The notes beneath the pieces are model-generated. The model did not search any database. It had not been told where the DNA came from and was given only the letters and a program-made list of their open reading frames with translations. From the NCBI RefSeq assembly GCF_003344885.1, contig NZ_CP031155.1:930001-994000 (forward strand): a DNA stretch of 64,000 nt. Direction: 5' to 3'. Source of the stretch: Altererythrobacter sp. ZODW24. Lineage in GTDB: Bacteria; Pseudomonadota; Alphaproteobacteria; Sphingomonadales; Sphingomonadaceae. The translations under genes and the position numbers were made by a program. Positions 20,187 through 54,579 of this stretch are shown one piece after another (position 1 is the stretch's first letter; the number at the start of each line of letters is the position of its first letter).

Positions 20187-20797
20187 CCGATATTGCCGCC
20201 ATCATGAAATCCGCGCCGGTAATCCCGGTGCTTGTGGTCGACGATGTCGCTCAGGCCCGCCCATTGGCTGAAGCGCTAGTGAATGGTGGTTTGCGCGTGC
20301 TGGAGGTGACCATGCGGACACCCGCCGCGCTCGAAGTGATCAAAGCCATGTCAGAGATTGAAGGCGCAATCGTTGGCGCGGGCACAGTCACCAATCCGGC
20401 GGAACTGGACCAGGCAATCGCCGCCGGTAGCGAGTTCATAGTCTCGCCCGGCCTAACTGAAAATCTCGGCAAGGCAGCTATTTCGGCTGGCATACCGTTT
20501 CTGCCCGGCACCGCGAATGCAGGCGACATCATGCGCGGGCTCGATTTGGGTCTCACACATTTCAAATTCTTCCCGGCGACAGCGGCTGGCGGTATTCCCG
20601 CGCTGAAGGCGCTCGCGGCACCATTCGGGCAGGTGAAGTTCTGCCCGACCGGCGGCATTTCCGCTGAAACCGCATCCGACTGGCTCGCCATCGAACCCGT
20701 GCTATGCGTAGGCGGAAGTTGGATCGCACCGCGCGGCACATCAGATTATGTCGGTGTTTCAGAAACCGCCAAGAAAGCAGCAGGACTGGCCGTATGA
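20183..20797 (+). CDS. eda: 2-dehydro-3-deoxy-6-phosphogluconate aldolase
   Basis: Eda splits KDPG into pyruvate and glyceraldehyde 3-phosphate. The 204-residue protein has LEVTMRT with the catalytic Glu and THFKFFPA with the Schiff-base Lys. It overlaps glk by four bases. It is also the point at which a uronate pathway such as the one at 46460-54579 would join central metabolism after phosphorylation of KDG. Confidence 0.97.
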   Translation: MTDIAAIMKSAPVIPVLVVDDVAQARPLAEALVNGGLRVLEVTMRTPAALEVIKAMSEIEGAIVGAGTVTNPAELDQAIAAGSEFIVSPGLTENLGKAAISAGIPFLPGTANAGDIMRGLDLGLTHFKFFPATAAGGIPALKALAAPFGQVKFCPTGGISAETASDWLAIEPVLCVGGSWIAPRGTSDYVGVSETAKKAAGLAV

Positions 20798-46459: not shown

Positions 46460-47221
46460 TCAGCGCGCCAGCCAGCCCCCGTCGACCGCAAGAATGTGGC
46501 CCTGAACATATTTGGCCGCATCAGAGGCTAGGAACACAGCCGCACCGCCCAGATCAGATGGTTCGCCCCAGCGCCCTGCCGGAATACGTTCCATAATCTG
46601 GCGATTACGATCCTCATCAGCCTGCAAGGCGGCCGTGTTGTTGGTCGCAATGTAGCCGGGCGCGATGGCATTCACATTGATGCCCTTGCCGGCCCATTCG
46701 TTAGCCATCAGTTTGGTCAGCCCGCCCACACCGCTTTTCGAAGCGGTGTAGCTCGCCACGCGGATGCCGCCCTGGAAGGTGAGCATCGAGGCGATGTTGA
46801 TCACGCTGCCGCCGCCATGATCCACCATATGGCGTGCCGCTGCCTGCGTTAGGAAGAACAGGCTCTTGAGATTAGTGTCCATCACCGCGTCCCAGTCGTC
46901 CTCGGTGAAATCGACCGCATCGTTACGGCGGATGATTCCGGCATTGTTTACCAGAATGTCCAGCCCGCCAAGCGTGCTCACGATATCCGCAACTACGCGG
47001 TTCACCGGCTCGACTGTCGACAGATCAGCCCGAACAATCAGTGCCCGGCGACCAAGCGCATCGACCATCTTGGCGGTCTCGTCGGCGTCACTTCGCCCGA
47101 TCAAGGCCACGTCTGCGCCCGCCTGAGCCAATGCGACCGCAATGCCCTGTCCAATACCGGTGTTGGCACCGGTGACAGCTGCGACCTTGCCAGACAGATC
47201 GAACGGCGAATGGGTGCTCAT
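46460..47221 (-). CDS. kduD: 2-keto-3-deoxygluconate dehydrogenase-type SDR (KduD/DhuD-like)
   Basis: The 253-residue short-chain dehydrogenase has TGANTGIGQG, NNAG, and the Ser-Tyr-Lys triad (INIASML, YTASK). Its C-terminus AGRWGEPSDLGGAAVFLASD is the KduD pattern. KduD reduces 3-deoxy-D-glycero-2,5-hexodiulosonate to 2-keto-3-deoxygluconate after pectin or glycosaminoglycan lyase action. It lies 10 bases from the RpiB-like isomerase gene, the neighbour expected for DhuI-DhuD. A ribosome site AAGGA precedes the ATG at 47221. Confidence 0.93.
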   Translation of the reverse strand: MSTHSPFDLSGKVAAVTGANTGIGQGIAVALAQAGADVALIGRSDADETAKMVDALGRRALIVRADLSTVEPVNRVVADIVSTLGGLDILVNNAGIIRRNDAVDFTEDDWDAVMDTNLKSLFFLTQAAARHMVDHGGGSVINIASMLTFQGGIRVASYTASKSGVGGLTKLMANEWAGKGINVNAIAPGYIATNNTAALQADEDRNRQIMERIPAGRWGEPSDLGGAAVFLASDAAKYVQGHILAVDGGWLAR

Positions 47222-47231
47222 TTTCAGGTCC

Positions 47232-47864
47232 TTAAAGGCTGCGCAGATAGCCGCTGATTTCGTCATCCTGCGCATTGGCGTAGAACAGCTCTTCGAACTT
47301 CTCGCCCGCGATCGTCGACTTCAGTAGATCCTGATCAATGTTTTTCAGAACCGACACCATGTCATGGCAAGTGACATCCTTCACTTGCGAGAGGATGCCG
47401 CGGTTCTTGGCCATGATTTCAGCGCGTTCTGTAGGATACCCCAGCCCGCCTTCTTCTTCGAACAACTTGCGGTAGCAATCCTGCAAGTTCAGCTCTGCTG
47501 CCCAGCCAAAACCCTTGGCATGGGGCATCGAAATGGCGTTACCGTCATTGATCCGGTTGAACAGGAACGCGTCAGTCGGATCGATCACGAGGCCGCAAAA
47601 CACACCCGGCATCGAATTACATGCCAACATCGAACCCATACCCGTGCCGCAACCCGTGACCACGAAATCCGCTGCCTTCGAATTCAGCAGAATGCCTGTG
47701 AGCAGTCCGTTCATTACATAAGTCAGCTGCGCATCATCTTCGGCAGTGTACATGCCGTAATTATGCACCTGGTGACCCATGGGCTCTGCAACAGAGGTCA
47801 GCGCGTCATGGATAATACCGTTCTTGGCGGCTTGGCTGTTTTCGCTGATCAGTGCAATTTTCAT
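47232..47864 (-). CDS. RpiB/LacA/LacB-family sugar isomerase, DhuI-like
   Basis: The 210-residue protein begins MKIALISENSQAAKNG and carries the RpiB-fold motif VVTGCGTGMGSMLACN. It is longer than ribose-5-phosphate isomerase B (about 150 residues), like DhuI, the RpiB-type isomerase of 4-deoxy-L-threo-5-hexosulose uronate described in streptococci and Sphingomonas. It lies directly before KduD/DhuD-like SDR, so the DhuI role (conversion of the unsaturated uronate product to the dehydrogenase substrate) is likely. The ATG at 47864 is chosen. A LacI-type palindrome lies 70 bases upstream. Confidence 0.85.
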   Translation of the reverse strand: MKIALISENSQAAKNGIIHDALTSVAEPMGHQVHNYGMYTAEDDAQLTYVMNGLLTGILLNSKAADFVVTGCGTGMGSMLACNSMPGVFCGLVIDPTDAFLFNRINDGNAISMPHAKGFGWAAELNLQDCYRKLFEEEGGLGYPTERAEIMAKNRGILSQVKDVTCHDMVSVLKNIDQDLLKSTIAGEKFEELFYANAQDDEISGYLRSL

Positions 47865-47934
47865 AATTTCTCGCTCTTCAGTGTAATTCAGGCGCATTGT
47901 GATACCCATCACACGCTTAGATTTATGATCGTTA

Positions 47935-47948
47935 GGTAACCGGTGTCA
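47935..47948. promoter_or_regulatory. Putative LacI-type operator upstream of the isomerase gene
   Basis: GGTAACCGGTGTCA, centred on ACCGGT, lies 70 bases upstream of the isomerase ATG. It matches palindromes at 52798 and 52834 upstream of the divergent hydratase and beta-helix genes. The shared half-site is ACCGGTGYCA. Confidence 0.6.
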
Positions 47949-47988
47949 TACGCCTATGCAAGCGGTATACTGACGCCTCTCGAAACAC

Positions 47989-49008
47989 TTACGTCGTGGG
48001 CGGTGCGACAACTGATCCGCGTTTCATCAACTCGGACAGCAGCAGCGTTTCCTGAACTGGTTCCGATTCAGGATCCGCTATCAATTTGAGCGCTGCGGCG
48101 CGGGCCATGCCCACGATCGGCCAGCGCACAGTTGTGAGTGATGGCCAGACATGGCTGGATAGCGGCGTGTCGTCGAAACCGACAATCGAAAGGCCGCGCG
48201 GGATTTCAATGCCGCGCTGGCGGGCAGCGATCATGACGCCGATGGCCATCTCGTCATTGGATGCGAAAACTGCGGTCGGCCAGACCTCGCGCTCGAGCAT
48301 GGCAAAGCCAGCTTCCTTGCCGGATTCGAACGTATAGGCACCAGCTTGGATCAGCTCAGGTCTCAGCTCCAGCCCGGCTTGTTCCAGCGCCTCTTCATAA
48401 CCGGCACGGCGCTCCCTGGCTGACAAAAAGCCCTTAGGCCCCTCAATCAGCCCAATTCGCTTATGCCCCATTTCAATGAGATACGTGACTGCCTCGCGCA
48501 CAGCGCTACGATCATTTGAGGTCACCATATGCTCAGGCTTATCGAGCTCGACCGAAGCCATTCGGACATATTTTGTGCCGTAACTGGCGCATAGCTCAGC
48601 CAACGCGTCATTGCCGGAAATCGGGGGCAGCAAGACAACACCGTAAGGGCGCTGCCTTTCCAGAAACTGGCGGATCGTATCTTCAACATTGGGCGAGTTG
48701 CGATCAACCGGCTGGACCATTAGTCCGAAATCGCTGCCCTCTATGCCCTCAAGAATGCCTTGCTGGACGTTCACTAGAAATTGAGCGTTCGGGTTATCGT
48801 GAATGACGGCAATGATGAAATTGTGGCGAAGCGCCAATGCGCGCGCTTGCGGGTTGGGAACATAGCCAAGTTCTGCGATCACATGTTCGACATGCAGCCG
48901 CGTCTTTTCACTTAGTAAGGGCGATTTGTTGATCACCCGGCTTACGGTCTTCTTCGAGACCTCCGCGATTCTTGCCACATCATTGATTGTCGGATTGCCC
49001 ATTGGCAT
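47989..49008 (-). CDS. LacI-family transcriptional regulator
   Basis: The 339-residue protein has an N-terminal LacI HTH (TINDVARIAEVSKKTVSRVI) and a sugar-binding domain with SIVGFDDTPLSSHVWPSLTTVR (given here in parts: VGFDDTPLSS and PSLTTVR). It lies between the TRAP permease gene and the isomerase gene on the same strand. It probably controls this locus and responds to a pathway intermediate such as KDG, as KdgR proteins do. A start at 49002 is an alternative. Confidence 0.93.
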   Translation of the reverse strand: MPMGNPTINDVARIAEVSKKTVSRVINKSPLLSEKTRLHVEHVIAELGYVPNPQARALALRHNFIIAVIHDNPNAQFLVNVQQGILEGIEGSDFGLMVQPVDRNSPNVEDTIRQFLERQRPYGVVLLPPISGNDALAELCASYGTKYVRMASVELDKPEHMVTSNDRSAVREAVTYLIEMGHKRIGLIEGPKGFLSARERRAGYEEALEQAGLELRPELIQAGAYTFESGKEAGFAMLEREVWPTAVFASNDEMAIGVMIAARQRGIEIPRGLSIVGFDDTPLSSHVWPSLTTVRWPIVGMARAAALKLIADPESEPVQETLLLSELMKRGSVVAPPTT

Positions 49009-49059
49009 CCTTCATGAATGTTGCGGCGGCTGCCTGCAAGTGCGCAGGCCAGACCGCGT

Positions 49060-50337
49060 TTAGAAAGCGTTCGGAAGCGCCAGCGACAATACCGGTACGA
49101 AGCTGATCAGAATGAGCGCAAAAATGAGCGTGAAATAGAACGGCCATATCGTCTTGACCAAAGTCGGCACAGGGATCTTGCCCACCGCCGAACCCACGAA
49201 CAGTACCGAACCCACGGGCGGCGTCACTAGCCCGATGCCAAGGTTGAGCATCAGAATAATCCCGAAGTGAACCGGATCAACGCCTGCCTCCATCGCCACG
49301 GGCAGGAAGATCGGCGTCGTGATAACAATCAGCGGCGCCATGTCCATAAATGTGCCGAGCATTAGCAACATAACATTGATAATCAGCAGCGTCATGATCG
49401 GGTTATCTGTCATCAGCGCGATCAGTTCAGCAAGCTGTGCAGGCACTTCAAGTAGCGCCAGTGCGAAGCCGAAGGCAGTCGCTGCCGCGATAATGAACAA
49501 CACCATGGAAGCTGTGCGAACCGACTTGGCAGCTGCCTCGCCAAACCCTTTCCAGCCAAGGCTACGGTAAACCAGCCAACCAACCAACGCGGTGTAGATG
49601 ACGGCGATGGCGGAGGATTCCGTGGGCGTGAAAATCCCGCTCAAAATGCCGCCCATGATGATCACGCCGGTCATCAGGCCCGGGATCGCATAGACCGCAG
49701 CGCGAATGAACTTGCGCCAGCCAGGGAATGTACCGCGCGGAAGGCCGCGCTTGCGGGCCACCAGCCAGGCGGTCAGCATCAACATAAAGCCGGTAAGCAG
49801 GCCGGGGACTATGCCAGCGAGGAACAGGTCGCCAATAGAAACGCCAACACCCGATGCGGCAGCGTAGATGATCATATTGTGTGATGGCGGGATCAGCAGA
49901 CCAACCACAGCGGCGGTCACAGTGACGTTCACCGCATAATCGCCGGGATAGCCCTTCTCCTCCATCAGCGGAACCATCGTGGAACCGATGGCTGACGCGC
50001 TGGCGATAGCCGAACCGCTCACCGCACCGAACATCATCGACGCGCCGACATCGACCAAGCCCAAGCCCCCGCGCACCCTCCCAAAGGCGACATCGGCGAC
50101 GCTCACCAGCCGGTCCGCAATGCCAGATCGGTACATTAGGTCGCCCGCGAATATGAAGAACGGGATCGCCATCAAGGTGAACACGCTGATCCCTGCCGCC
50201 ATGCGCTGGACAGCGACAACCAAGGGAATATCGATCAACCAGAAGGTCGCCAGCGCCGCGCCAAGCAGAGAGAATGCCACAGGCACGCCCAAAGCCAGAA
50301 GGAGCAACAACACGCCAAAGAGAACCAGAATCTCCAT
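49060..50337 (-). CDS. TRAP transporter large permease (DctM-like)
   Basis: The 425-residue protein has about 12 membrane helices and the DctM pattern: GVPVAFSLLGAALATFW, MAIPFFIFAGDLMYRSGIA and PPSHNMIIYAA. It is the main sodium-coupled permease of a tripartite system. It overlaps the small permease gene by one base (TAATG). In this context it probably imports uronic acids or unsaturated oligouronides. Confidence 0.93.
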   Translation of the reverse strand: MEILVLFGVLLLLLALGVPVAFSLLGAALATFWLIDIPLVVAVQRMAAGISVFTLMAIPFFIFAGDLMYRSGIADRLVSVADVAFGRVRGGLGLVDVGASMMFGAVSGSAIASASAIGSTMVPLMEEKGYPGDYAVNVTVTAAVVGLLIPPSHNMIIYAAASGVGVSIGDLFLAGIVPGLLTGFMLMLTAWLVARKRGLPRGTFPGWRKFIRAAVYAIPGLMTGVIIMGGILSGIFTPTESSAIAVIYTALVGWLVYRSLGWKGFGEAAAKSVRTASMVLFIIAAATAFGFALALLEVPAQLAELIALMTDNPIMTLLIINVMLLMLGTFMDMAPLIVITTPIFLPVAMEAGVDPVHFGIILMLNLGIGLVTPPVGSVLFVGSAVGKIPVPTLVKTIWPFYFTLIFALILISFVPVLSLALPNAF

Positions 50338-50810
50338 TATTCGGCGCCTCCCGCTGGAGCCGTGCGCCATTCATTCCGCGCATGAGCAAGTGCGAACACC
50401 ATCATGAGCAGGCCCGAGAATGGCAACGGCAGATAGGCAAAACCGCGGCTGATCCCGAGGCCGGGAATGACGTTGCCGCGCACCAACCACGCGAGCTCCG
50501 TTCCAAAGACAAGCAACACCGCGCCAAACAGCGCCACCAGCAGATGGATCCCGAGCCGGACGATCCGTGCGCGCGAAGGCGAAGACATGTTTTCGAGCAA
50601 CGCAATCCGGATATGAAACCCTTCGCGCACGCCCGCGGCAGCAGCAAAAAGCACATACCAAATCATCAGGATCAACGCGGCCGGTTCGGACCATGACGGG
50701 CTCGAATTTAGCACAAAGCGGCCAAACACCTGCCAGCCAATTATGCCGGTCATGATGACAAGACCCGCAGCGCCGATCCGCACTAGCCATTCTGAAACCT
50801 TGTCGAGCAT
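50337..50810 (-). CDS. TRAP transporter small permease (DctQ-like)
   Basis: The 157-residue protein has four membrane helices with the DctQ motif SEPAALILMIWYVLF. It bridges the large permease and the binding protein. It overlaps both neighbours by one base. Confidence 0.92.
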   Translation of the reverse strand: MLDKVSEWLVRIGAAGLVIMTGIIGWQVFGRFVLNSSPSWSEPAALILMIWYVLFAAAAGVREGFHIRIALLENMSSPSRARIVRLGIHLLVALFGAVLLVFGTELAWLVRGNVIPGLGISRGFAYLPLPFSGLLMMVFALAHARNEWRTAPAGGAE

Positions 50811-51829
50811 CAGCCACCACTCCTCATCGCAAGAATCTTATCGACAAGCTCGCGCTGCTTGGGTGTGGTGATAAAGCTGTCCCACATATCGGTCATCTTG
50901 CCAGTAAAGAGAGCGGGGTCGACTTCATTCACTTCGACGCCCGATTCCATCACGGTCTTCATGCTTTTTGCGACCTGCGCGTCCCACAGCTGACGCATGT
51001 AGGGCACGGAATCGCGGGCCGACTGGCGCACAATTTGCTGTTCTGCTGTCGAAAGCTTGTCCCAGCTGATCTTCGACATCACGAAGACCTCTGGCGCGAG
51101 CAAATGTCGCGTCAGGCTGTAATAGCGGGCAACCTCGTAATGGCGGCCGCTTTCGAAGCTTGGCCAGTTGTTTTCGGCACCATCAATCACGCCTTGTGCG
51201 AGCGACTGGTACACTTCATCGAGCGGCATTGGCGTGGCGTCCGCTCCCAATGATTTGACCATCGCAACATAGAGGTCGGAGCCGGGAACGCGCAGCTTCA
51301 AGCCCTTCATATCCTCAGGCGTCGTGATGGGTCCGCGCGTGTTGTAAAAACTGCGCGCGCCGGAATCATAGAAGCACAGCCCAATCAGCCCGTGCGGCTC
51401 AAGCGAGGCGAGAATTTCATCGCCAATCGGCCCATCCAGCGATGTCCGCATATGCTCGGTAGATTCGAACAGGAAGGGCAGCGCTGCGACAATTGTCAGC
51501 GGCTCGATGGAATTGAGCGGCGCCAAGTTCACGCGGTTGAAATCAAGCCCGCCAAACGTGGTGATTTCCAGCGTATCGCGCTCATTACCGAGCTGCCCGC
51601 CAGCATACATGCGCAGAGTGCGTTTTCCGCCTGTCCGTTCGCTCAGCAGCTCGCCAAACCGGATGACGGCCTGCACAGTGGGATAATCGAGCACATGGGT
51701 ATCAACCGCTGTAAAAGCGTCGCCCAGTCGCATTCCGCAGGACGCCAAAAGCGCTGAACTGCCCGCGATAAATCCGCGCCTGCCGAATGTCATAAGCGGA
51801 TGCGCTGCGGCGGGCGGGAAATCACTCAT
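50810..51829 (-). CDS. TRAP transporter solute-binding protein (DctP-like)
   Basis: The 339-residue periplasmic protein has a Tat-like RRGFIAGSSALL signal and a possible lipobox LLASC. The DctP domain includes GGQLGNERDTLE, LPFLFESTEHMR and GLKLRVPGSDLYVAMVKSLG. The Arg of KLRVP is the residue that binds carboxylates in this family, in keeping with an acidic sugar. The ATG at 51829 overlaps the hydratase gene stop by four bases; an internal ATG before the signal (51793) is an alternative. Confidence 0.92.
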   Translation of the reverse strand: MSDFPPAAAHPLMTFGRRGFIAGSSALLASCGMRLGDAFTAVDTHVLDYPTVQAVIRFGELLSERTGGKRTLRMYAGGQLGNERDTLEITTFGGLDFNRVNLAPLNSIEPLTIVAALPFLFESTEHMRTSLDGPIGDEILASLEPHGLIGLCFYDSGARSFYNTRGPITTPEDMKGLKLRVPGSDLYVAMVKSLGADATPMPLDEVYQSLAQGVIDGAENNWPSFESGRHYEVARYYSLTRHLLAPEVFVMSKISWDKLSTAEQQIVRQSARDSVPYMRQLWDAQVAKSMKTVMESGVEVNEVDPALFTGKMTDMWDSFITTPKQRELVDKILAMRSGG

Positions 51830-52638
51830 CCAGCGAACGGCTTCGCTGGCACGAGCTTGAGCTGTATCTCGCCAAATTGTCCGAAGCGGCAAACGGCGGA
51901 AACTCCGCTACGCGTTTCGTGAACGCCGGTGATCGCACCGGAAGTAACCAACGAATCCTGCGGCAGATCGATTGAGTGTTTCTCCGCATGAGCGCGCAAA
52001 AAGGCCAGCGCATCGAGCGCGTCTTTGGGGAAATTGGTCAAAGTGCGCGTGCCAACAACTTCGCCGTCGATCAGTGTTTCCAAGTCAATCGACCCGGCAT
52101 CAATATCGCGCCAGTTCTTGATTTCCTGTCCAACCAGCAGGCCGCCATTATTGCCGAAGTCACAGATGACGGCGACCGGGCCAAGCGAGTTGATAGCGGG
52201 AACCGGGCTGCTGGCGAGTTCGACGCCAATGAACATGCGCTCTTCACCGGGGTTTGCCCCCAGTTGAAAGACGAACTCACCCTCCACCGCAGCGGACCCT
52301 GGATAAACGGGGAACTCGGCGACTTCGCCCTCCCCCACATGATGTATCGCGCGGCTGAATACTGGCCCGACCAGCCGGTCGACGCCAAAGCGCTCGCGAT
52401 ATGGTCCCGGAGGAACGCCCCCGACTTTCCAGGCCCCAACCTCATCCGGCCAAGCGTGGCGTGAATAATTCTGGATGGCGTAAGCATCCTCGAACGTGTC
52501 AGGCAGCTGGCCGGGAAACGCCGGGAGCGCGCGTGCATCGCGCCTTGCGGAAAGCAAAGTGTCCGCAATGGATCGAAGCTCAGCGCCCAGCTCTTGCTTA
52601 GCGCCAGGTGAACCTGATTTCCCAATGGTACCTGTCAA
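51826..52638 (-). CDS. 2-keto-4-pentenoate hydratase-family protein (MhpD-like)
   Basis: The 270-residue protein has the FAH/MhpD-like fold: AWKVGGVPPGPYRERFG, EGEFVFQLG with metal-binding Glu, and GVHETRSGVSAVCRFG. Related enzymes hydrate or cleave 2-oxo acids. It is the first gene of the TRAP-lacI-isomerase-SDR group. Its substrate in uronate catabolism is not evident; possibly it acts on a keto-acid shunt product. The start is a TTG at 52638 with GAGGGGG upstream. Confidence 0.8.
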   Translation of the reverse strand: MTGTIGKSGSPGAKQELGAELRSIADTLLSARRDARALPAFPGQLPDTFEDAYAIQNYSRHAWPDEVGAWKVGGVPPGPYRERFGVDRLVGPVFSRAIHHVGEGEVAEFPVYPGSAAVEGEFVFQLGANPGEERMFIGVELASSPVPAINSLGPVAVICDFGNNGGLLVGQEIKNWRDIDAGSIDLETLIDGEVVGTRTLTNFPKDALDALAFLRAHAEKHSIDLPQDSLVTSGAITGVHETRSGVSAVCRFGQFGEIQLKLVPAKPFAG

Positions 52639-52797
52639 AATTGCCCCCTCAGACCCGTTGCGTTACGCACGAAGGATAGTCCGCAGGGGGCAGCCTGTCA
52701 CGCCGGGGGAATTAGAGGAGCTGCAAGGTGAAGAATGGACTGCGTCACAACGCATTTTGTAGCTCTCTCCTCAGTGTTTTACGAGGCATTTTGCCTT

Positions 52798-52811
52798 CTG
52801 AACCGGCGCCA
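52798..52811. promoter_or_regulatory. Putative LacI-type operator, divergent promoter region (1)
   Basis: CTGAACCGGCGCCA, part of the same palindrome family as 47935 and 52834, in the 255-base region between the hydratase-like gene and the beta-helix gene. A TGAACCGGCGCCATT core with GCCATT is shared with the next site, 36 bases on. Confidence 0.6.
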
Positions 52812-52833
52812 TTAGCGCCTATACCCCCACAAT

Positions 52834-52847
52834 TGACACCGGTGCCA
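52834..52847. promoter_or_regulatory. Putative LacI-type operator, divergent promoter region (2)
   Basis: TGACACCGGTGCCA is an almost perfect palindrome, the best copy of the motif. A weaker relative, AATACCCGGTGAAT, follows at 52857. The rest of 52639-52893 holds no gene I can support. Confidence 0.68.
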
Positions 52848-52893
52848 TTGAAGGTCAATACCCGGTGAATAATGACAATGAGAGAGATGCGGG

Positions 52894-54579
52894 ATGGTTG
52901 GGCGAGACAAAATACGTGATGTTTTGAAATGTTTGTCGATCTCTGCCAGCGCGTTGGCAATTGCGGCAGCGCCAGCAGAGTCGCAGGAACTCCCCGAGAT
53001 ACTCGACCAGAGCGAAAGTTCTGAGGCGCCCTATCTACCCGACTTTTCCTATGCCGGTTACGAATACGGGCTGGAGCCTGTGCCCGAGGTTTCACAGATC
53101 ATTCTCGCTGCCGATCACGGCGCGGTTCCAGACGATGGCAGGGATGATAGCGCTGCGCTGATCGCTGCTATTGCAGCGGCTTCTGCCACCAATGGTCCGG
53201 TGAAAGTGCAATTGGCTGCAGGCCGCTATGAACTCACGGAAATTCTCTGGATTGAAGGCAGCAATATCGTGCTGGCCGGCGTGGGATCAGGCGAAGGCGG
53301 GACCGAACTCTACATGCCCCGCCCGCTCAACCAGATGGATGATGGCGGCGCGTCGGACGAATTGCGCAAATATCTTGTCGAGAATGACAAGCGCGAGCGG
53401 CAACCAGACAAGAACCTCGACGTATTGTTCAGCGAATATAGCTGGAACGGCGGCTTTATCTGGACGCGCGCACCGGGCGGACGCCATGCGACTTACATGG
53501 AAGAATATGACCGCGATATCGTTGGACTCGGCGATATTAGTGTCGGCGTGAAGGGGACCAGACAGGTCTCTATTGGGGCCAAGAGCGACCTAAAGGTCGG
53601 CGATGTCGTCCAAATCCATTGGCATAATCGCGCTGGCGAAAACGGCCCGCTGATTGCAGAAATGTACGGCGACACTGATGAGAAGATCGGAGATCGCCAT
53701 TGGACTCTGCCTGACCGGCCCTTGGTTCGCCAAGCAACGCGGATCGAAGCGATCAATGGCAATCAGGTCACCATCGCTGACCCCTTGCTCCACAACATCT
53801 CGGGTGACCTTCCTGCCTATTTCGCGAAGTGGGATCATCTTTCGGGAGTGGGCTTGCAAGACTTCGCCATGACATTCCCCGAGAACCCGTTTTTCGGCCA
53901 TCACAATGAAAGCGGCTTCAACGGCATTTACTTCACCGGTGTCCACAATGGCTGGATCACAAACGTCACCGTGACCAATGCCGATGCCGGGATCATGACG
54001 GATGATCTCGCCAATGTGACCATTTCCAATATCAAGACCGATGGCAATCATATCGCCCACTACAGCGTCCATGTCGGCAATGTTCACAATGTGTTGGTGG
54101 AGGGCGTGAATGTCTTCAACCCCACGATCCATACCTTTAGCTTCAACACGCAGGCGACCAAGTCGGTCTATCGAAACTCCGTCGGTTGGGTCGCACCAAC
54201 GCTGGATCAGCATGCCGGGGCCAACCATCAGAACCTGTATGACAATGTGACGGTTCACATCACACCGGATCAGAAGGCAGCGGATGGCTCCGCAATGTAC
54301 GACCTCTATAAGGCTGGCGGCGCCGGATATTGGCTGCCCGGGCACGGGCGCTATAACACGATGTGGAATGTTAAAGTCCTAGTGGATGGCAGCGTTCCAC
54401 CAGACGAAAAGGTGACAATCCTGGGCGCATCAGAAGGCCCGGAAGCGCGCATCATCGGAATGCATGGCAACCGCGAGATTGTGCTCGACTACCGTCCCCA
54501 GCCCTATGTTGAGCTGATGAACACACCGATAGATACGATCCCGTCGCTCTATGCTTGGCAGCTAGCCCAAAGGAGATAG
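52894..54579 (+). CDS. Secreted right-handed beta-helix protein, candidate polysaccharide lyase
   Basis: The 561-residue protein has a signal peptide (cleavage near residue 31, PAESQE) and a pectate-lyase-3-type N-terminal repeat (DHGAVPDDGRDDSAAL). Beta-helix rungs follow from about residue 300, with many Asn and His: NGIYFTGVHNGWITNVTVTN, NHIAHYSVHVGNVHNVLVEG and DQHAGANHQNLYDNVTVHI. The regular VxNVxI rungs and exposed His/Asn/Asp fit a lyase or epimerase acting on a uronic-acid polymer. The divergent TRAP-isomerase-SDR operon supports lyase. I do not recognise a CAZy family from the motifs alone. Confidence 0.8.
   Translation: MVGRDKIRDVLKCLSISASALAIAAAPAESQELPEILDQSESSEAPYLPDFSYAGYEYGLEPVPEVSQIILAADHGAVPDDGRDDSAALIAAIAAASATNGPVKVQLAAGRYELTEILWIEGSNIVLAGVGSGEGGTELYMPRPLNQMDDGGASDELRKYLVENDKRERQPDKNLDVLFSEYSWNGGFIWTRAPGGRHATYMEEYDRDIVGLGDISVGVKGTRQVSIGAKSDLKVGDVVQIHWHNRAGENGPLIAEMYGDTDEKIGDRHWTLPDRPLVRQATRIEAINGNQVTIADPLLHNISGDLPAYFAKWDHLSGVGLQDFAMTFPENPFFGHHNESGFNGIYFTGVHNGWITNVTVTNADAGIMTDDLANVTISNIKTDGNHIAHYSVHVGNVHNVLVEGVNVFNPTIHTFSFNTQATKSVYRNSVGWVAPTLDQHAGANHQNLYDNVTVHITPDQKAADGSAMYDLYKAGGAGYWLPGHGRYNTMWNVKVLVDGSVPPDEKVTILGASEGPEARIIGMHGNREIVLDYRPQPYVELMNTPIDTIPSLYAWQLAQRR

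Follow-up and report, generated by a model that had tools for sequence, protein, structure and literature searches.

The systems closest to the one described here are clusters for the catabolism of 4-deoxy-L-threo-5-hexosulose uronate (DHU). The glycosaminoglycan (GAG) cluster of Streptococcus agalactiae combines the isomerase DhuI and the reductase DhuD with import by a phosphotransferase system (PTS) and the unsaturated glucuronyl hydrolase UGL (PMC12838403, PMC6045597; here and below, papers are cited by their PMC number for the part of their text that was available). A survey of 3,550 genomes reported a hybrid arrangement of dhuI and kduD, type G, only in Sphingomonadaceae (nine strains) and Erythrobacteraceae (four strains) (PMC12838403). 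On the side of polymer cleavage, BT3328 of Bacteroides thetaiotaomicron is a lyase of glucuronate-containing GAGs (PMC6994673). We analyzed a 64,000-nt window from Altererythrobacter sp. ZODW24 (positions 930,001 to 994,000 of contig NZ_CP031155.1; coordinates are those of the window unless the contig is named), whose genome is a single contig of 2.81 Mb, 99.99 % complete. Eight open reading frames (ORFs) at 46460–54579 make up a real, conserved and probably co-regulated uronate-polymer locus, the isomerase-reductase core of which is already published. We consider it likely that this is a locus, probably LacI-controlled, for the use of a glucuronate-rich polysaccharide (glucuronan or ulvan-like) by means of a PL29-like lyase, a tripartite ATP-independent periplasmic (TRAP) importer and the DhuI/KduD pair.

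Organization and conservation of the locus

Read in order on the minus strand, the genes encode an MhpD-like protein, DctP, DctQ, DctM, a LacI-family regulator, DhuI and KduD, and the gene for a secreted beta-helix protein diverges from them on the plus strand. The coordinates and strands given by a preliminary description of this DNA hold for all eight ORFs, which are open, and profiles and structural models agree with its picture of seven minus-strand genes facing a secreted beta-helix protein. No SusC/SusD pair, the mark of Bacteroidota-type polysaccharide utilization loci, is present among the eight ORFs.

A scan of GTDB genomes gave at least 515 confirmed relatives of the beta-helix protein among the 599 candidate stretches listed. 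We compared 90 non-duplicate loci (the best 80 of these relatives, six from genomes of the host's family and four from plasmids, after dropping six duplicates), scoring the presence of genes by tblastn with thresholds that we set. The MhpD-like, DhuI, KduD, DctM, DctP and LacI genes were all found beside the beta-helix gene in 17 of the 90 loci (DctQ was not required), indicating that the linkage is not due to chance and bearing out the conserved association for which the preliminary description had proposed a search; a TonB receptor was also present in 15 of these 17. The typical order in Sphingomonadales is kduD-dhuI-lacI-dctM-dctQ-dctP-mhpD-TonB receptor, facing the beta-helix gene. A DHU isomerase is encoded in 47 of the 90 loci, GH88 in 36, at least one of the two in 77 and at least one scored uronate gene in 79, which agrees with the initial assignment of the ZODW24 genes to uronate polymers.

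The isomerase-reductase pair

Gene kduD (46460–47275, minus strand; likely start around 47221, by eye) codes for 2-dehydro-3-deoxy-D-gluconate 5-dehydrogenase, a short-chain dehydrogenase/reductase (SDR), which matched TIGR01832 with 391.9 bits (curated cut-off, 338.85) and stayed under the cut-offs of two narrower KduD models (355 vs. 430 and 352.3 vs. 369 bits). Gene dhuI (47232–47912, minus strand; likely start around 47864, from the alignment with 4u8e) codes for a predicted RpiB-fold DHU ketol-isomerase, which would convert DHU to DK-II, with 325.6 bits to NF006753 (cut-off, 137) and 21.8–31.4 bits, under cut-off, to the NCBIfam models for RpiB and LacAB; the superfamily model PF02502 was above cut-off, as expected for the RpiB fold family. 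Its nearest solved chains are 3c5y (2.7e-111) and 4u8e (2e-83), the latter titled gbs1892, which we take to be the S. agalactiae DhuI, and ribose-5-phosphate isomerases followed at 4.1e-6 or weaker. Profiles and PDB matches, rather than a tree, thus support a DhuI-type isomerase distinct from ordinary RpiB/LacAB, as first proposed.

The reductase had been described as KduD/DhuD-like; it is KduD by profile, so the pair corresponds to the published type G hybrid and not to DhuI-DhuD. Gene dhuI (47912–47232) is followed by kduD (47275–46460), both on the minus strand, and the order, the direction and both protein families are those of type G (PMC12838403), an account that in its available part makes no mention of the beta-helix protein, the TRAP genes, the operator or the MhpD-like companion. 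The DhuI-type isomerase is also shared with the S. agalactiae cluster, from which ZODW24 differs in having KduD instead of DhuD, TRAP instead of PTS import, and no UGL match in its genome.

The beta-helix protein and its relationship to PL29

The beta-helix gene (52894–54579, plus strand) encodes a secreted protein with a signal-peptide-like N-terminus (by eye), a PL29-like candidate uronan lyase whose AlphaFold2 (AF2) model (pLDDT 93.4, pTM 0.92) is a right-handed beta-helix. Its score with PF12708 was 24.3, under the cut-off of 27, and a sequence search against the PDB returned nothing specific. The NCBIfam model BT_3328 (PL29), however, was matched by all 55 family members scanned, the best at 1e-33. 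The cut-off of this model does not file the ZODW24 protein as PL29, but its beta-helix catalytic domain is homologous to BT3328, with homology detectable over the beta-helix core; the ca. 300-residue N-terminal region of BT3328 is lacking. A Persicobacter protein scored 298.4 bits with BT_3328 (residues 15–541) and 166.7 bits with the profile of our family and, since it matches both models, the PL29 relationship is real.

Two plasmid-borne relatives stood in for Bacteroidota PL29 sequences in this comparison. In the family-profile alignment, both outliers retain residues D438 and H440; the LPDFSYAGY block is also retained, with a single substitution in one outlier, and position 390 is Tyr in family members but His in the two outliers. 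These positions may have a catalytic role. Plasmid proteins with PL29-like domains from Persicobacter (L193, 8947–11760) and Flammeovirga (L194, 6880–12387), which form bridges to BT3328, are annotated as carboxypeptidase and DNRLRE proteins.

Structural re-alignment of the model with VIA placed 7chu in the top row (Z 26.1, 2.6 Å, 281 residues aligned), with the alginate epimerase/lyase 8jaz/8ja4 at Z 25.4 (8jaz, 2.7 Å over 284 residues), a Klebsiella K1 capsule lyase at Z 24.8 (3.6 Å over 350), the alginate lyase 6kfn at Z 23.1 (2.7 Å over 264), AlgE4 at 22.6 and RbmB at 22.1; these comparisons, like those of the MhpD-like model below, cover the rows listed, and fold families outside them are not thereby excluded. 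Judged from its sequence, the beta-helix protein is a distant PL29 (BT3328-type) relative in a large family. The kinship in all 55 members favors the earlier idea that it is the source of unsaturated uronides, which are its most likely product. None of the outcomes named in the preliminary description as refuting its reading was encountered.

Distribution and genomic context

A strong homologue of the beta-helix protein occurs in 14 of 199 genomes sampled from the host's family, including ZODW24, and a tree of 55 members spans Sphingomonadales, other Alphaproteobacteria, Gammaproteobacteria and Bacteroidota. Plasmid copies are annotated as ‘GH28-related’, as hypothetical or with unrelated names. 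One locus labelled as a Klebsiella pneumoniae metagenome-assembled genome (L095) carries a beta-helix gene that falls inside Bacteroidota in the tree, with flavobacterial-type neighbors, and is probably a mis-binned contig and not a Klebsiella gene.

The other families around these genes were named from one representative per cluster, several clusters being left without annotation. Many flavobacteria show the order kduD-uxuA-beta-helix-c8-c13-c14-GH88, where c8 looks like a sensor and c13 and c14 like a SusC/SusD pair by size, position and sequence start, not by profile. In some Pontixanthobacter and Erythrobacter loci, these genes are followed by sugar-kinase, aldolase-dehydrogenase, isomerase-like and DeoR genes, a set that we read as L-rhamnose catabolism, and by GH88. 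In Alteromonas sp. 76-1, a 126-kb plasmid encodes a homologue that is 45 % identical to the ZODW24 protein and annotated only as ‘glycosyl hydrolase family 28-related’; sulfatases, GH43 and an alpha-L-rhamnosidase are encoded nearby. This plasmid has been linked to growth on ulvan and also carries PL24, PL25, GH88 and GH105 (PMC6431674), and the ZODW24 locus contains none of these genes. None of the scored uronate genes lies beside the beta-helix gene of the Alteromonas plasmid within the stretch examined. Upstream of that gene there are two proteins (L022, 775–3493), the first without a Pfam or NCBIfam match and the second without an NCBIfam match. The UxaC/UxuA, sulfatase and rhamnose-type contexts, together with the ulvan plasmid, favor glucuronate polymers.

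The same DHU arises from pectin and from glucuronate polymers (PMC12838403, PMC6045597), and the locus could instead serve pectin or galacturonan, with the beta-helix protein as a pectate-type lyase or hydrolase and with galacturonate and unsaturated galacturonate entering through the TRAP system. Of the 55 members, 10 weakly match a rhamnogalacturonidase model, which is consistent with this alternative, as is the existence in relatives of 14 DhuI-KduD-LacI-MhpD loci without a beta-helix gene (L195–L208), which indicates that the core serves more than one polymer. The uniform match of the family to BT_3328 and the contexts pointing to glucuronate argue against it, and we regard a pectin locus as unlikely. 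Many of the 14 loci adjoin a gene that by eye resembles a carboxylesterase, a TonB-receptor-like gene and a further protein of ca. 490 residues; they perhaps serve a second polymer, maybe pectin.

The TRAP importer and the LacI-family regulator

The TRAP system is complete, with the large permease DctM (49060–50370; PF06808, TIGR00786), the small permease DctQ (50337–50810; PF04290) and the substrate-binding protein DctP (50810–51892; PF03480), all on the minus strand and all above cut-off. The solved chains closest to DctP are 4mij/4mhf, 4n8y, 4ovr and 4x8r, which we take to be glucuronate/galacturonate binders, suggesting that DctP probably binds uronates. By eye, the N-terminus of DctP has a twin-arginine-like signal followed by a lipobox (RRGFIAGSSALLASC), so that it may be a lipoprotein.

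The regulator gene (47989–49008, minus strand; PF00356 and PF13377 above cut-off) belongs to a LacI cluster; of 93 loci in which a beta-helix ORF was called, counting the ZODW24 window and duplicates, 35 contain a member of this cluster. Between the two divergent units there is a 14-base palindrome, TGACACCGGTGCCA (52834–52847), with one mismatch to the consensus TGACACCGGTGTCA; the consensus was read from the same beta-helix loci, and L195–L208 were not used for the reading, although they were fetched for the closeness of DhuI and MhpD. Of 89 other loci (this count excludes the ZODW24 window; an earlier count of 90 loci included it and left out L059), 33 have a site with up to two mismatches to TGACACCGGTGTCA upstream of their beta-helix gene: 24 of 39 with a LacI gene in the locus and 9 of 50 without (Fisher 4.8e-5). 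Such a site was present in 117 of 9000 random windows. In 14 of the 15 cases of a site at a TonB receptor gene, it is the beta-helix gene's own, lying in the divergent region that both genes share, so that the two are not separate evidence. The site also precedes mhpD in 10 of 34 LacI-holding beta-helix loci, and among the 14 loci without a beta-helix gene, 13 have it before mhpD, 12 before lacI and 9 before dhuI, although genes may share a position. ZODW24 has a weak, uncertain copy with three mismatches, GGTAACCGGTGTCA, before dhuI in the gap to lacI (47935–47948). The LacI-family protein probably binds these palindromic sites and would thereby control the locus.

The MhpD-like protein as a companion of DHU isomerases

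The AF2 model of the MhpD-like protein (51826–52638, minus strand; pLDDT 92.3) aligned in VIA with MhpD, HpcG and 4-oxalocrotonate decarboxylase at Z 24.3–26.3 over 229–240 residues, with 15–18 % identity (2wqt: Z 25.4, 2.7 Å over 240 residues), and a distant profile match also places it in the MhpD fold. It had no Pfam match at 0.001 and just two weak NCBIfam matches, the best with 23.9 bits vs. 350.55, thus falling outside the named hydratase/decarboxylase model. All 28 members compared have K71, E119, E121, E140 and H240, and the protein keeps the ExE…E plus Lys pattern of the superfamily, which we take to be its functional residues. The family is nevertheless set apart from the rest of the superfamily by its link to uronate catabolism and by scores far under the named models.

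Among the 199 sampled genomes, 51 of the 52 that have DhuI or KduI encode this protein, compared with 7 of the 147 that have neither (p = 1.5e-38). Within the 23 listed genera that showed both states, it is encoded by 30 of 30 genomes with an isomerase and 2 of 34 without (Cochran-Mantel-Haenszel p = 5.9e-9); these p-values treat related genomes as independent, and the classes were cut by us. The MhpD-like protein was counted at E < 1e-20 (58 of 61 genomes, dropping G031, G088 and G165), DhuI as 30 strong matches (at least 75 % identity) out of 170 genomes with any match, KduI as 29 genomes with 78–117 bits to PF04962, leaving out six further genomes with over 350 bits that were taken as IolB, and GH88 only above cut-off (18 of 19 genomes, dropping G013). 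Counting the three weakest matches raises the occurrence in isomerase-less genomes to 10 of 147, and counting the IolB-type matches as isomerases gives 51 of 58. The sole isomerase genome without the MhpD-like gene, G082, is 66 % complete.

In 42 of the 58 genomes, no more than 10 kb separates the gene from a DHU isomerase gene, whether DhuI or KduI. The same result for two unrelated isomerase families argues against simple hitch-hiking, and the proximity to the isomerase also where the beta-helix gene is lacking (L195–L208, chosen for this proximity) ties the protein to DHU catabolism and not to this particular polymer. The preliminary description was right in listing an MhpD-like gene as one of seven, but its co-occurrence makes it the most informative part of the locus. 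A derivation from an aromatic meta-cleavage route, as a hydratase or decarboxylase present here by chance, would be in keeping with the fold and the distant profile matches, which are to such enzymes. This explanation is highly improbable in view of the co-occurrence, which holds inside 23 genera, the proximity to isomerases, the very low scores with the two named models and the operator-like site before the gene in 13 of the 14 loci without a beta-helix gene.

MhpD-fold enzymes bind 2-oxo/2-enol carboxylates via a metal and move protons along the carboxylate chain. Since an unsaturated uronate is a cyclic enol ether and opens to such an enol, and since DHU, counted from the carboxylate, is a 4-hydroxy-2-oxo acid, a ring-opening and ketonizing role like that of KdgF would fit best; a GH88-like hydration, or the rehydration of dehydrated DHU, would fit too. 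Our tentative proposal is that the protein could be the enzyme so far lacking from DHU catabolism in sphingomonads, a metal-dependent and unrelated replacement of KdgF that opens and ketonizes 4,5-unsaturated uronate to DHU, much as DhuI replaces KduI, or, in a bolder form, a replacement of GH88/GH105. In the latter case, its cytoplasmic substrates may be short unsaturated oligouronides, which it would hydrate at C4=C5. KdgF is a cupin, unlike the MhpD fold, and only the step would possibly be the same. Ring opening of unsaturated uronate also happens unaided (PMC12838403), which weighs against a simple swap for KdgF.

Among the 30 DhuI genomes, 23 of the 24 with the MhpD-like gene within 15 kb of DhuI lack GH88, and all six with the gene elsewhere, from four genera, have it; this pattern is a lead, and would be explained by the bolder form. 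Neither substitution was supported by mutual exclusion. Across the 199 genomes, the MhpD-like protein and GH88 tend to occur together (16 shared, odds ratio 26), and both genes are near the beta-helix gene in L029, L039, L045, L046, L054 and L077. KdgF (counted at < 1e-30, dropping 19 weaker genomes) was found in 12 of 199 genomes, six of them with the MhpD-like protein (p = 0.11, in the wrong direction); each of these six carries the two genes on separate contigs or ca. 19 kb or more apart. The KdgF loci L062 and L075 lack the MhpD-like gene and are too few to count.

A literature search, with subscription journals mostly outside its coverage, found no paper linking this family to uronate catabolism. 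According to the available part of one study (PMC13390454), a Vibrio alginate locus includes a gene of the fumarylacetoacetate hydrolase family, which that study calls not apparently related and did not investigate.

Other pathway genes in the ZODW24 genome

The whole genome gave no match to PF07470, which we take to cover GH105 as well as GH88 (controls gave a signal in 3 of 14), nor to KduI (PF04962), nor to one cupin KdgF-like query, itself named by its motif. The lack of UGL noted initially for the locus thus extends to the entire genome. Of the 14 genomes in the family that carry the beta-helix gene, 10 likewise lack GH88/GH105. That no KdgK had been seen is correct for the locus but not for the genome, because KdgK and 2-keto-3-deoxy-6-phosphogluconate (KDPG) aldolase genes are found at contig positions ca. 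2,066,775–2,068,471, 1.1 Mb away; this KdgK is 87 % identical to that encoded beside the beta-helix gene in a relative. They belong to a region (L121, contig 2056001–2068471) with a TonB receptor, a FadR-type regulator, PL6-like and PL17-like proteins, a major facilitator superfamily transporter, an SDR, the KDPG aldolase and KdgK, and with no KdgF match, which by gene content appears to be an alginate-type locus. The idea that kdgK shares the operator was rejected: no site was seen upstream of kdgK in 20 loci, and the alginate-type locus of ZODW24 held a single match with three mismatches, at chance level. An Edd-type dehydratase gene (17401–19212) and a second KDPG aldolase gene (20192–20737), both Entner-Doudoroff genes, lie ca. 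26 kb from the locus.

The receptor is a similar case. A TonB receptor occupies this position of the locus in many relatives but not in ZODW24 and some others, so that its reported absence holds for ZODW24 without being a feature of the system.

Proposed function of the locus

From gene content, homology, folds, linkage, the recurring site and absences at the sensitivity of our searches, we infer the following route. The secreted beta-helix protein would cleave the polymer by beta-elimination, yielding 4,5-unsaturated uronate. Because our searches detected no unsaturated uronyl hydrolase in the genome, the cut should end in monomers, either by exo-action on a homopolymer or through another lyase, such as the PL17-like one. 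The TRAP system would import the unsaturated uronate or its open form, DHU, and the MhpD-like enzyme would also work in this pathway, with the unsaturated or enol form adjacent to the DHU step as its most likely substrate.

Several observations weigh against this interpretation. The ZODW24 protein scored only 59.6 bits with BT_3328 (cut-off, 1100), over residues 219–392. Ordered by E-value, the first seven Foldseek rows are phage tailspikes and depolymerases, and the VIA rows, at Z 20–26, mix lyases, epimerases, hydrolases, inulin lyases, polygalacturonases and tailspikes; with lyases and other activities at like Z, the fold is no proof of a lyase. BT3328 cleaves only hyaluronan oligosaccharides of at least eight residues (PMC6994673), unlike an exo-lyase that releases monomers. 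No scored uronate gene is found in 11 of the 90 loci, and GH88 is more frequent among those of the 199 genomes that have the beta-helix gene (4 of 14) than among the others (14 of 185; p = 0.027), suggesting that GH88 is often part of such systems. The operator-like site is absent from 15 of the 39 LacI-linked loci and precedes dhuI in just 1 of 23 LacI-holding beta-helix loci. Finally, a TonB receptor of the usual type is not in the genome, the best match (39 %) being in the alginate-type locus, which leaves uptake unexplained.

Some of these observations would also suit a beta-helix protein that is a hydrolase, an epimerase or a binding protein, in a locus that just scavenges unsaturated uronate released by other organisms: the fold matches include polygalacturonases, GH110 enzymes, epimerases and tailspikes, and a TRAP system suits monomers where the usual receptor is not found. 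The homology chain to PL29 and the signal-peptide-like N-terminus speak against scavenging. So do the flavobacterial loci, where the beta-helix gene stands beside GH88 with no other lyase among the annotated cluster representatives, except for an alginate-lyase-type gene in L085, L099 and L112. On this evidence we find scavenging quite improbable, and retain the use of a glucuronate-rich polysaccharide through a PL29-like lyase as the likely function.

The locus thus ties an uncharacterized and widespread beta-helix family, with at least 515 relatives, to the breakdown of glucuronate polymers. Its most informative part is a protein family kept by 51 of 52 sampled genomes with a DHU isomerase, which no paper found by us connects to uronates. 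If the MhpD-like enzyme does open or hydrate unsaturated uronate, the textbook pathway would gain a second solution for this step.

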